Assembly (NCBI RefSeq): GCF_003287285.1
Contig: NZ_QMIG01000044.1
Coordinates: forward strand, 1 to 39,707
Reading direction: 5' to 3'
Length of the DNA stretch: 39,707 nt
DNA from: Phytoactinopolyspora halophila
GTDB lineage: Bacteria; Actinomycetota; Actinomycetes; Jiangellales; Jiangellaceae
A program made the translations under genes and the position numbers. The notes below the pieces were generated by a model. The model was not told the DNA's origin. It saw only the letters and a program-made list of their open reading frames with translations, and ran no database searches. Positions 7,795 through 11,204 of the stretch are shown in pieces (position 1 is the first letter of the stretch; each line of letters opens with the position of its first letter).

Positions 7795-10329
7795 TCACGC
7801 CAGCTGGATGTCCTCCGGCGCTCCTTCGGCCACGATCTGACCACCGCCGACGCCGCCCGCCGGGCCGAGCTCGATCACCCAGTCCGACGCGCGGATGACG
7901 TCAGTGTCGTGCTCGATGGTCACGACGGTGTTCCCGGCGTCGACGAGTCGCTGGAGCACATCCAGCAAGCACGCGGTGTCCGCCGCATGCAGGCCGACCG
8001 TCGGCTCGTCGAGCAGGTACAGTGCCCGCGCGCCGGCACCGCCCTTCCGCGTGCCCTGCCGGGCCAGTTCCTTCGCCAGCTTGATGCGCTGCGCTTCGCC
8101 CCCGGATAACGTCGTCGCGGGCTGGCCCAGCGGCAGGTATCCGAGGCCGACGTCGGCCATTACCTGCAAGCGCGACGAGATCGCCGGCACGTCGCCGAAG
8201 ATGTCGAGTGCCTCGGCGACAGTCATGTCGAGCACCTGCGCGATATCGCGGCCGCCATACGTCACCGCCAGCACGGCGGGCTGGAAACGGCGTCCACGGC
8301 AGCTCGGACAGCGCACTTGCACGGCCGGCAGGAAGTGCATCTGAACGTCGAGCACGCCCGCGCCCTCGCAACGTTCGCATCGTCCTCCACGAACGTTGAA
8401 CGAGAAATGCCCAGGGGTGAGACCACGTTCCCGGGCCCCGGCCGTCGCGGCGAACGCCTCGCGGATCGGCGTGAACGCCCCGGAGTAGGTCGCCGCATTC
8501 GAGCGCGGCACGCGGCTGATGGGCTGCTGGTCGATGGTCACGACCTTGTCGAGGTGTTCCCACCCGTCGATCCCATCGTGCGCTCCGGATGTCTCGATGG
8601 CGCCGTAGAATCGTTGCCGCGCGGCGCGGCTGACGATGTCGAGCATCAGCGACGACTTGCCCGAGCCCGACGGCCCGGCAACCGCGACGAGAAGACCGAG
8701 CGGCAGCCGCACGGTGACCTCCTTGAGGTTGTGTTCCCTCGCCCCGCGAATGATCAATGCCGTCCCGTCGCCCGCTCTGCGGGTTTCCGGCACGGGTGTG
8801 GCCAACTGCCCTGCGAGGTGGCCGCCCGTCACCGAGTCCGGGCTCGCGGCCACCTCGTCCGGCGTACCCGTCACCACGATGCGCCCGCCATGCCGACCCG
8901 CACCGGGTCCGATATCGACGACGTGGTCGGCTGCTCGCAACACGTCGAGATCGTGCTCGATCACGAGCACCGTGTTCCCCAGGTCACGCAAACGGCGCAG
9001 CACGCCAATGAGCCGCTCCGTATCGGCCGGGTGCAGTCCGATAGTGGGTTCGTCGAGCACGTACAGCACCCCCGTCAGCCCCGAACCCAGCAGGGCGGCC
9101 AATCGCAGCCGCTGGGCTTCACCTCCGGAGAGGCTGGGAGTCGGCTGGCCGAGCGTGAGGTACCCGACGCCGACGTCGACCAGGCGGCGGATCCGTTCTT
9201 CGAGGTCGACGACGATGGGCTCGGCCACCAGCCACTCCTCGGCCGTGATCTGACCCCGGAGGGAATCGATCCAGGTCGCAAGCTCGTCGAGGGGCAAACG
9301 CAGCGCATCGATGATGGTCCGCCCGGCGACCGTGACGCGTCGACTCTCGGGACGGAGACGCGTGCCCCGGCAGTCCGGACACGTCTGCGTGACCAGGACG
9401 TGCTCCGCCCTCTCACGGTAGTCGGCGTCCTCGATGCGGTCCGCATAGCGCCGCAGCACGTTCGTCACCACACCCTCGAATCGCCCGCCCGTGACGGTCG
9501 CGGGTGGCTCGATGTCGGGGACGTGCCGGCGGAATTCAGGACTGTCGACGCCATAGAACAGCAGGTCACGTTGCGTCTCTCCGAGTTCCCTCACCGGCGC
9601 ATCGGCGTCGAAGGAGAAACCATAGTGCCGCGCGGCCGCCTGGAGCACCGAGATGTTGCGCGCAGTGAGCGAAGGATGCCAGCCGACGACGGCTCCTCCG
9701 GCCACGCTGCGCTCGTCGTCCACCAGGCGCTGTACGTCCGCGTCGAACACCGTTCCGAGGCCGGTGCAGGTGGGGCACGCACCGGCAGGCTTGTTGAACG
9801 AGAAATTTCCCATCACTAGCTCCGCCACGGGTGTTCCGCAGTGGGGACAGGGCACGGTCGGGCCCGCCTCTGGTGTCTCCTCCGGCTCGCCACCGGGGAC
9901 GTCGTCGTCCCATACTTCATCGCCACTCACCCGGTACGCCGGTGGGACGCCCTGCCCGCATTCCGGACACGCCTGGTAGCCGATGCGTGCCCACAGCACG
10001 CGGAGATAGGTGAAGACCTCCGTTGCGGTTCCGACGGTGGAACGCGGGCTGCGATTCGTCAGGTGCTGATCGACACTGATCGACGGCGACAGGCCGGTGA
10101 TCGAGTCCACCGCCGGCTTGCTCACGAACCCCGTCACCATACCCAGCGATTCGAGGTACTGGCGCTGGCCTTCCTTGTGCAGAATGTCGAACACCAACGA
10201 CGACTTGCCCGAGCCCGATACCCCGGTGGCCACGGTCAGCAGGCGTTTGGGCACGTCGACATCGATATTCGCGAGATTGTGTTCGCGCGCTCCAATGACC
10301 CGAATTCGTTCACCAACTCCGAAATCCAT
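7795..10329 (-). CDS. UvrA-like ABC ATPase lacking the UvrB-binding insert (UvrA2/DrrC/TioU type)
   Basis: An 844-residue duplicated ABC ATPase. Walker A sites are GVSGSGKSS (36-44) and GPSGSGKSS in the second half; ABC signatures are PSLSGGEAQRLRLA and TTLSGGEAQRIKLA; Walker B/D-loop segments are LYVLDEPTIGLH and LYLLDEPTVGLH. Zinc modules CPEC (121-124), CPHC (161-164), CPTC (185-188), CPDC and the CERC/CPSC pair are kept. Only 36 residues, mostly acidic, separate CPEC from CPHC, where canonical UvrA has well over 100 residues including the UvrB-binding domain. It therefore belongs to the UvrA2-like class. Actinobacterial members (DrrC in the daunorubicin cluster, TioU in the thiocoraline cluster) protect DNA from bound drugs. 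It is divergent from a tandem-MerR regulator, and the inverted repeats lie 2 nt from its ATG. Confidence 0.92.
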   Translation of the reverse strand: MDFGVGERIRVIGAREHNLANIDVDVPKRLLTVATGVSGSGKSSLVFDILHKEGQRQYLESLGMVTGFVSKPAVDSITGLSPSISVDQHLTNRSPRSTVGTATEVFTYLRVLWARIGYQACPECGQGVPPAYRVSGDEVWDDDVPGGEPEETPEAGPTVPCPHCGTPVAELVMGNFSFNKPAGACPTCTGLGTVFDADVQRLVDDERSVAGGAVVGWHPSLTARNISVLQAAARHYGFSFDADAPVRELGETQRDLLFYGVDSPEFRRHVPDIEPPATVTGGRFEGVVTNVLRRYADRIEDADYRERAEHVLVTQTCPDCRGTRLRPESRRVTVAGRTIIDALRLPLDELATWIDSLRGQITAEEWLVAEPIVVDLEERIRRLVDVGVGYLTLGQPTPSLSGGEAQRLRLAALLGSGLTGVLYVLDEPTIGLHPADTERLIGVLRRLRDLGNTVLVIEHDLDVLRAADHVVDIGPGAGRHGGRIVVTGTPDEVAASPDSVTGGHLAGQLATPVPETRRAGDGTALIIRGAREHNLKEVTVRLPLGLLVAVAGPSGSGKSSLMLDIVSRAARQRFYGAIETSGAHDGIDGWEHLDKVVTIDQQPISRVPRSNAATYSGAFTPIREAFAATAGARERGLTPGHFSFNVRGGRCERCEGAGVLDVQMHFLPAVQVRCPSCRGRRFQPAVLAVTYGGRDIAQVLDMTVAEALDIFGDVPAISSRLQVMADVGLGYLPLGQPATTLSGGEAQRIKLAKELARQGTRKGGAGARALYLLDEPTVGLHAADTACLLDVLQRLVDAGNTVVTIEHDTDVIRASDWVIELGPAGGVGGGQIVAEGAPEDIQLA

Positions 10330-10331
10330 AC

Positions 10332-10357
10332 CTTCAAGTATCTCATTGAAGTACTTG
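10332..10357. promoter_or_regulatory. Overlapping inverted repeats at the UvrA-like gene start (candidate MerR operator)
   Basis: CTTCAA (10332-10337) pairs with TTGAAG (10346-10351), and CAAGTA (10335-10340) pairs with TACTTG (10352-10357), giving two nested palindromes immediately upstream of the ATPase ATG (10329). On the minus strand a GATACT -10-like element sits 7 nt before the ATG, so the message may be leaderless and the operator would lie within its promoter. MerR-type regulators bind dyads between -35 and -10. The divergent gene encodes a double MerR protein. Confidence 0.4.
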
Positions 10358-10433
10358 CGTAAACTTTGTCTGAGCTAACCTCGAATTTCATCGTGCCTAT
10401 ACAGAAAAACTCTCAACTAGCGGAGAAAAGGCA

Positions 10434-11204
10434 TTGGCATCGACTGGCGAACCGATGGATCGGGCAGGGAAACGGCTGCGGCCGGTCGATCTCGCCCGGG
10501 CGGCGGGTATCTCGACACAGCAGGTCCGCAACTACGAAGAGGCTGGCGCGCTACCCGCGGCTCCACGCACGCCCTCCGGCTATCGCAGCTACGACGCGCG
10601 GCACCGGAACGCCCTGCTGACGTATCGGGCGCTCGTCCGCGGATACGGAACGGACACCGCCCTGGCCATCATGCGGGCCGTGCACGCCGGGGACATCCCC
10701 CAGACTCTCACCCTCATCGATGCCGGGCACGCTGCGCTGCACGAACAACGGCTGTCCCTGGAAGCGACGCAGAACGCCCTGGAAGTGGTGGCCGAGGAGA
10801 ACCCGGACAGCTCGGCTCCGGGGCGTTCGGGCATGCGCATCGGCGAGGTCGCCGCCTACCTCGGCATACGCGCCTCCGCGCTGCGCGTGTGGGAGTCCGC
10901 CGGCCTCCTGGCGCCACGGCGCGAACACGGCACCAGGTATCGCAGCTTCGACCCGGCCGATATCCGGGATGCCCGAATCATCCACATGCTGCGGCAGAGC
11001 GGATACCTTCTCCCGCAGATCCGTTCCGTGCTTGACGGGCTCCGCCACACCGGAAATACCGACGCGCTCCGCGCGGCGATCGAACAGCGCCAGAAGCAGC
11101 TGATACAGCGCTCGACCGCCATGCTCGAAGGCGCCAGCCTCCTCCATCGCTACATCACCGGCGAGCAGATCTCCGGCGCCGATGCGGGTGGCGCAGGTGG
11201 ATGA
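10434..11204 (+). CDS. Tandem-domain MerR transcriptional regulator (TioE-like)
   Basis: A 256-residue protein with two complete MerR winged-helix domains. The first covers about 16-85 (RPVDLARAAGISTQQVRNYE, then PSGYRSYDARH). The second covers about 134-203 (MRIGEVAAYLGIRASALRVW, then GTRYRSFDPADIRDARIIHM). A helical linker joins them and a short helical tail follows. No Cys-based metal site is apparent. Single-chain double MerR proteins are found in actinobacteria beside UvrA-like resistance ATPases, as with TioE/TioU (named from memory of the family). I infer that it controls the divergent ATPase and itself from the dyads at 10332-10357. The start TTG 10434 has GGAG 8 nt upstream (10422-10425); ATG 10455 is the alternative. 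The gene ends 4 bp before a long hairpin. Confidence 0.88.
   Translation: MASTGEPMDRAGKRLRPVDLARAAGISTQQVRNYEEAGALPAAPRTPSGYRSYDARHRNALLTYRALVRGYGTDTALAIMRAVHAGDIPQTLTLIDAGHAALHEQRLSLEATQNALEVVAEENPDSSAPGRSGMRIGEVAAYLGIRASALRVWESAGLLAPRREHGTRYRSFDPADIRDARIIHMLRQSGYLLPQIRSVLDGLRHTGNTDALRAAIEQRQKQLIQRSTAMLEGASLLHRYITGEQISGADAGGAGG

Follow-up and report, generated by a model that had tools for sequence, protein, structure and literature searches.

Regulators of the MerR family are the textbook case of transcriptional activation by twisting of the promoter spacer. Within this family, TioE proteins, named from the thiocoraline cluster, are described in the CDD as having two adjacent MerR-like domains; we take the CDD models cd04772 and cd04773 to be those of the TioE family. 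We found no experiment on the TioE family in the open-access literature, and neither an operator nor a mechanism for it, and to our knowledge the description of these proteins includes no phased operator. Classical MerR activators, such as CueR, SoxR, BmrR, MtaN, and TipA, are built from a wHTH domain and a long helix, and a review places their operator in the spacer between the −35 and −10 elements (PMC9909328). HspR is likewise a MerR-family protein, a repressor, of which one type is a fused dimer according to its NCBIfam name, and a report on the Helicobacter pylori protein proposes cooperative binding beside its inverted repeat (PMC6102357). BldC, a MerR-like single domain of 68 residues, is described as binding direct repeats in head-to-tail multimers (PMC5859096). 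Outside the family, short promoter loops have been proposed for H. pylori Fur (PMC5007355). Finally, DrrC, TioU, and Ecm16 are UvrA-like self-resistance proteins, and two sources regard UvrA relatives of this type as acting on drug-bound DNA (PMC4052310, PMC10192343).

Here, we describe a locus of Phytoactinopolyspora halophila that shares features with each of these systems. It lies in a window of 39,707 nucleotides (the whole stretch of DNA analyzed), which is part of contig C36 of a 5.04-Mb genome. Its regulator, like members of the TioE family, comprises hardly more than a pair of adjacent MerR domains and is encoded beside a UvrA-like gene of resistance type. With the classical activators it has in common the wHTH domain followed by a long helix, and the half-site CTTCAA found next to its gene resembles the CCTCAA of SoxR (half-site CCTCAAG). 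Unlike those activators, it has two DNA-binding domains per chain, and a Pfam scan found no effector domain; moreover, the operator that we describe covers a −10-like element of a putative promoter, rather than lying between −35 and −10, and includes a remote phased half-site. The order and spacing of the half-sites differ from those of HspR. BldC differs in having one domain rather than two, and its direct repeats are comparable with a direct repeat of half-sites H2 and H3 found here. Fur is metal responsive and of an unrelated protein family, the likeness being the proposed short loop. Like DrrC, TioU, and Ecm16, the divergent protein is a UvrA relative, present in the genome in addition to another UvrA; its assignment to the resistance type is putative.

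The tandem-MerR regulator and its divergent neighbor

The regulator gene occupies positions 10434 to 11204 on the plus strand and encodes a cysteine-free chain of 256 aa, from a TTG start at 10434 (with an ATG at 10455, codon 8, as the alternative) to a stop ending at 11204. A Pfam scan placed PF13411 (MerR_1) on two stretches of the protein (E value of 4.4e-25), and a whole-genome profile search with PF13411 gave two matches inside this open reading frame, at 10488 to 10640 and 10833 to 11039. The N-terminal MerR wHTH domain (10476 to 10679, plus strand; residues ∼15 to 82) carries the recognition helix STQQVRNY, and the C-terminal one (10833 to 11042, plus strand; residues ∼134 to 203) carries RASALRVW. 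In an AlphaFold2 model made from 30 input sequences (mean pLDDT, 84.5; pTM, 0.71), the unit of a wHTH domain and a long helix occurs twice per chain, the long helices being residues 88 to 121 (10695 to 10796) and residues 210 to 242 (11061 to 11159), both on the plus strand. In a fold comparison by VIA-align, which barely covers the N-terminal part, the C-terminal domain aligned with GlnR, MtaN, CueR, TipA, and SoxR at Z scores of 10 to 12. A Foldseek search with the whole chain gave zero PDB matches at an E value of ≤0.001, and MerR proteins headed the list. The earlier note on this DNA had read two full MerR DNA-binding domains in one polypeptide and had called the protein TioE-like. Profile matches and model bear out the first point, and the naming of relatives bears out the second: several carry the NCBI product name “TioE family transcriptional regulator,” among them proteins to which the regulator is 46 to 48% identical over 90 to 94% of the query. 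We count the protein as a further, new member of that named family. The model for fused HspR, NF047377, scored 18.7 bits on the regulator, below its cut-off of 300.

Three histidines draw attention to the first long helix. Among 82 relatives, H99 is kept in 80, H84 in 66, and H103 in 61; H84 lies just ahead of this helix, and H99 and H103 lie within it. These residues may contribute to the binding of a ligand or a metal. In the esterase-type regulators listed, one or two of the three are missing, with replacements at position 84 or 103.

The regulator is closer to proteins of Streptosporangiales (70% identity to the protein at locus L047 and 67% to a Planobispora protein) than to its matches in genomes of its own family, the best of which reaches 59%, a difference in likeness that hints at horizontal transfer. 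Tandem-MerR relatives were also seen beyond Actinomycetes, on a Paenibacillus plasmid (L176) and in Enterococcus, at ∼28 to 30% identity, and in the Paenibacillus record the divergent neighbor of the tandem-MerR gene encodes a GntR regulator.

The UvrA-like gene lies divergently at 7795 to 10329 on the minus strand and encodes 844 aa from an ATG at 10329 to 10327. Its product scores 976 bits against TIGR00630 (cut-off, 729.8) and contains PF17755, the UvrA DNA-binding domain. In the best stretch of the match to PRK00349, residue 159 of the protein is set against model position 253, and ∼94 residues are missing ahead of this stretch, a region that we take to be where UvrB binds. Another UvrA, with 47% identity, is encoded on contig C40 of the same genome. 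The divergent protein is a probable resistance ATPase for DNA-bound drugs. A further UvrA-like stretch in this genome (G000:C18:23270-25591) has its matches split over two open reading frames of 864 and 1,237 aa and is perhaps a broken or fused copy.

The inverted repeat O1 and the putative promoter of the UvrA-like gene

Between the two genes, a repeat search found an inverted repeat, here called O1, made of CTTCAA at 10332 to 10337 (half-site H1, plus strand) and TTGAAG at 10346 to 10351 (half-site H2, minus strand), with 8 nt between the arms; we refer to this word as the type I half-site. Position 10332 is the first base of this palindrome, not of the regulator gene. The earlier note had described O1 as interleaved with a second palindrome, CAAGTA/TACTTG. 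This too is present in the window, at 10335 to 10357, with CAAGTA at 10335 to 10340 and TACTTG at 10352 to 10357. The repeat search also returned a longer inverted pair, CAAGTATCTCA at 10335 to 10345 and TGAAGTACTTG at 10347 to 10357, which is 82% complementary. Comparison with relatives separates the two palindromes: the arms of O1 are conserved, but the right arm of the second (columns 20 to 25, columns being positions counted from O1's first base) holds 0.05 to 0.61 bits over 51 nonredundant sites. We therefore retain O1 as a real element, reject the second palindrome as an operator, and regard it as peculiar to this window and, perhaps, to a small number of other sites.

Over the same 51 sites, 11 of the 12 arm columns of O1 hold 1.16 to 2.34 bits and the last holds 0.37, values that are partly circular, O1 having served in part to select the sites. 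A test free of this selection is a count over 59 tandem-MerR loci, unfiltered for redundancy (30, including the window, plus 29 from two homology searches). The pattern CTTCAA-N8-TTGAAG, with at most 3 mismatches in 12, occurs within 250 nt upstream in 44 of the 59; at three of these (L022, L027, and L036), a place other than O1 scores best, though O1 can still be recognized. Conservation of the palindrome in front of homologous gene pairs, on which the earlier note had made its operator depend, is therefore found for O1. At the remaining 15 loci, no O1-like repeat was present within 250 nt upstream at this threshold. At L038, one of these 15, O1 is present in a more degenerate form, and we counted this copy as an operator. 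The 14 tandem-MerR genes lacking O1 upstream (L011 to L013, L019, L020, L026, L054, L055, L061, L063, L066, L068, L072, and L075) encode recognition helices that resemble those of the rest, which we count against the reading preferred below; their targets may lie elsewhere, as in genomes G146 and G127, which have separate operators.

An extended form of O1 with 13 fixed bases, CTTCAA-N6-CATTGAA, was used for genome searches. It occurs once without mismatch in the 5.04-Mb genome, and with up to 2 mismatches 33 times versus 10 for the control. Exact matches were found at 55 places (54 of them distinct) in 249 genomes from the order of G074 versus 1 for the reversed control, and at 43 places among the matches listed for 295 Streptomyces genomes versus 1 for the control. 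In 148 nearer relatives, the contrast is weak, at 8 places versus 4.

O1 covers an element that resembles a promoter. On the minus strand at 10337 to 10345, the sequence TGAGATACT can be read as an extended −10 motif (TGn) and a −10 hexamer, GATACT, and the ATG of the UvrA-like gene follows 7 nt on. Reading of the window sequence revealed no well-placed Shine-Dalgarno sequence before this ATG. A scan of the window found no sigma-70 promoter with full −35 and −10 elements, and we rejected a promoter of that kind with a −35 in the window. Since the extended −10-like element covered by O1 stands only seven bases from the ATG, the UvrA-like mRNA is likely leaderless, and O1 would be centered at about −12.5 from the start point so placed, over the −10. 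The earlier note, which had set the palindrome on a probably leaderless promoter for the UvrA-like gene, is supported on this point.

Conservation in this region was followed over the 74 nonredundant operators assembled below. The A at hexamer position 2 (column 9), a base that neither the half-sites nor the search pattern include, is conserved in 73 of 74, and hexamer position 6 (column 5) in 74 of 74, but the latter falls within H1. Columns 9 and 12 could be conserved for the protein rather than for sigma. In relatives facing erythromycin-esterase-like genes, this place is taken by hexamers such as TACCGT. Start codons stand at columns −4 to −1 at 37 of the 45 sites adjacent to a TioE gene versus 3 of the 29 others, from which we conclude that probable leaderless starts go with linked targets. 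Many targets away from the regulator gene have short leaders.

Two further half-sites and the helical phasing of H4

Sequence comparison showed that the operator extends beyond O1 and consists of four half-sites, two CTTCAA and two AAcYYTCAA, with each pair inverted. The type II half-site H3, of consensus TTGARRcTTT, lies at 10358 to 10367 on the minus strand; in the window it is degenerate (CGTAAACTTT), and this is counted against the reading preferred below. The second type II half-site, H4, is AACTCTCAA at 10408 to 10416 on the plus strand, with its six-base core at 10411 to 10416 (column 79). The H4 consensus, AAcYYTCAA, is the H3 word inverted, so that one consensus is common to both. In addition, H2 and H3 form direct repeats 12 bp apart.

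H3 begins at column 26 in 60 of the 74 operators and at column 27 in 12. H4, by comparison, occupies a ladder of positions (columns 68 to 70, 78 to 81, and 89 to 90) whose rungs are about one helical turn apart. In the 51 nonredundant sites, scanned over columns 43 to 112, the best H4 fell at columns 68 to 70 in 18 and at 78 to 81 in 33, and 24 additional sites found through O1 alone placed it at 68 to 69 (6 sites), 79 to 81 (17 sites), and 89 (1 site). A 70% identity limit reduced 101 sites to the 74 nonredundant operators; three exact O1 matches without H3 and H4 (L137, L144, and L145), judged to be chance matches, had been dropped by eye before this count, the operators at L027 and L036 were anchored by hand, and the scan, which had ended near column 112 before, was carried to column 127 for this count and for those with nothing dropped. 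H4 is on the ladder in all 74 operators, at columns 68 to 70 in 23, 78 to 81 in 50, and 89 in 1, with cluster means of 68.4, 79.3, and 89 (the last from one site) and hence steps of ∼10 to 11 bp. A matrix-free count of YTCAA over the 74 sites gave 0 in columns 36 to 66, 64 at columns 69 to 70 and 79 to 81, and 1 in columns 93 to 130.

With nothing dropped, 52 of the 54 distinct sites from the order search carry an in-phase H4 that scores ≥7. The two exceptions are L144 (score of 5.7) and L145 (column 85); L137 lies outside that set. Of the 43 Streptomyces places listed, 29 sites were fetched, and H4 is in phase at 25 of these, including four with H4 at column 90. The four Streptomyces misses are L239, L250, L252, and L253. 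Of these, L252 and L253 retain O1 and H3 with no H4, and L239 has no H4 on the ladder; these, too, we count against the preferred reading. A control scan on the opposite side of O1 gave 10 strong hits among 83 sites, 1 of them in phase.

The phase rule does not depend on the regulator gene being nearby. Among the 59 regulator-derived loci, 45 have an operator that could be located, and every one of these 45 has H4 in phase. The same is true of all 29 operators for which the tandem-MerR gene is absent from the fetched ∼1.5 kb on each side. H4 is therefore part of the target's operator, and we rejected the idea that it is a mere promoter element of the regulator gene. A quick tree was made for 60 regulators, with weak support for 22 of its 57 inner branches. 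On it, H4 changes phase at least 9 times, and at least 4 of these changes are forced by strongly supported branches; the closely related regulators L246 and L251 have H4 at column 80 and column 70, respectively. A count of 11 target changes on this tree was set aside, because its target labels were taken from short text patterns and at least one of them (L074 as esterase) is wrong. Whole-turn shifts of H4 have thus been accepted repeatedly, and no part-turn change was seen among sites with well-scoring H4 and H3. Shifts of H4 and H3 correlate with an r of 0.30, and the spread is not reduced. A search for a partner arm of H4 yielded only a weak AA at +16/+17, and such an arm was rejected.

Targets and the candidate binder

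A tandem-MerR gene adjoins 45 of the 74 operators and does not adjoin the other 29, a share that is biased, since that gene was the route to some of the 74. A tandem-MerR match at an E value of ≤1e-20 is present in 217 of the 249 genomes of the order search and, at the same threshold, in all but one (G149) of the 49 genomes with an exact O1; given so high a base rate, the co-occurrence of TioE and O1 is weak evidence. One genome, G366, has three operators and a single TioE match at that E value. On these comparisons, the tandem-MerR protein is the likely candidate for the binder of the operator.

Targets of the 74 operators were grouped by similarity clustering, with one or two representatives of each group scanned against Pfam. 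UvrA-like proteins and ABC ATPases, the latter presumably DrrA-like, fall in one BLAST cluster of 30 targets; other clusters are DUF6194 (11 targets) and erythromycin esterase (7 targets), and the target at L028 is a siderophore-interacting flavoprotein. A group of small proteins of ∼62 to 87 residues was recognized by eye. This conserved protein (KFVLEVDM...ELGRILRYWGGNLKHY) follows the operator in many cases where a regulator gene is not close by; it is encoded on the minus strand of the operator at L140, L171, L212, L213, L215, L217, L219, L220, L223, and L227. A Pfam scan of one member, from L220, gave no match. On annotated plasmids, the gene beside the regulator encodes an erythromycin esterase family protein in four records and DUF6194 in one.

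Regulators of the UvrA type and the esterase type differ at Q30 (A in the latter) and at S148-A149 (A-T in the latter). An attempt to assign the half-site types to the N- and C-terminal domains by covariation failed, since both recognition helices change together, and we assign neither head to a site.

Discussion

From the operator's anatomy, its phasing, and its targets, we infer that a TioE-type regulator represses the divergent UvrA-like gene through a composite phased operator in which contact is made with H4, a reading to which we give a probability of roughly 0.5. TioE would repress its UvrA-like neighbor and probably its own gene. Two inverted CTTCAA half-sites would span the extended −10 and the start point of a leaderless UvrA-like mRNA, and two inverted AAcYYTCAA half-sites would be found around −30, for H3, and around −75, −86, or −96, for H4. 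Protein bound at O1 would block RNA polymerase, and a protein contact between O1/H3 and H4 across whole helical turns would strengthen the block, a short DNA loop being the simplest form of such a contact. A signal, which might be a drug or some state that the DNA takes on, would release the block. With O1 centered near −12.5, where it would cover the −10 and the start point, repression is favored over the classical MerR mode. At 41 to 63 bp, the stretch from H3 to H4 would make a very short loop, and this counts against the reading. So do the 29 operators that lack a tandem-MerR gene nearby, the absence of a TioE match at an E value of ≤1e-20 from G149, the weak contrast in the 148 nearer relatives, and the chance that columns 9 and 12 are conserved for the protein.

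The spacing of H3 and H4 by whole turns is expected if protein at H4 touches either the protein at O1/H3, through looping, or RNA polymerase. The latter contact leads to an alternative that we consider rather unlikely, though not negligible: H4 would be a phased, class I-like activator site that touches RNA polymerase, and O1 would be a separate site for repression or tuning. CRP class I activator sites step by one helical turn, and H4 at about −75, −86, and −96 steps in the same way; also, a promoter for which no −35 was found in the window could need help. Yet H3 is a half-site of the same kind as H4, inverted and fixed beside O1, mostly at column 26, and a class I site alone would need no H3. 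Also, O1 covers the −10.

Two more alternatives appear improbable. Classical MerR activation, with the regulator seated in a spacer of 19 to 20 bp and untwisting it on signal, would be in keeping with the MerR domains and with what a review gives as the usual mode of the family (PMC9909328), but O1 lies over the −10 rather than in the spacer between −35 and −10, the scan of the window yielded no −35 hexamer, and H4 is left unexplained. Alternatively, one chain might bind O1 as a built-in dimer, much as the earlier note had envisaged, with H3 and H4 as unrelated elements of the regulator's promoter. That each MerR domain has its own long helix, as in MerR dimers, speaks for such an arrangement; the single consensus of H3 and H4 speaks against it, as does the phase that H4 keeps at all 29 operators whose fetched surroundings lack a regulator gene. 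It is more improbable still that the operator belongs to another, unlinked regulator, with the tandem-MerR gene a frequent neighbor or one more target: 29 of 74 operators lack that gene nearby and the presence of TioE in 217 of 249 genomes makes co-occurrence weak evidence, but 45 of 74 adjoin it (a biased share) in front of several kinds of target, and the half-sites are MerR-like.

Under repression through a composite operator, the number of chains involved may be asked. Four half-sites of two kinds would fit an assembly of two chains at least as well as a lone chain, because a dimer of a two-headed chain has four heads, two per kind, like the operator. Tentatively, and with more doubt than attaches to repression itself, a TioE dimer might be a four-headed clamp that closes a phased, whole-turn mini-loop over promoters of resistance genes. 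The two kinds of MerR head would read the two kinds of half-site, and H2 would be common to the repressing repeat H1-H2 (centered at −12.5) and to the direct repeat H2-H3, whose center at −24.5 would be about where MerR proteins activate. A signal that moved one pair of heads could then switch repression to activation.

A helically phased operator of four parts was not found described in the open-access literature, and as far as we have seen it is a new variation on MerR-type regulation. The tandem-MerR branch appears to depart from the mode for which the family is known, with a multipart operator over the start point and a remote half-site on three whole-turn rungs. The 13-fixed-base pattern is clean enough (55 matches versus 1 in 249 genomes) for genome-wide prediction of targets, and a single kind of switch ties together UvrA-like, ABC ATPase, esterase-like, DUF6194, and unnamed small-protein genes. 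With the operator in hand, the role of TioE in drug self-resistance becomes testable.
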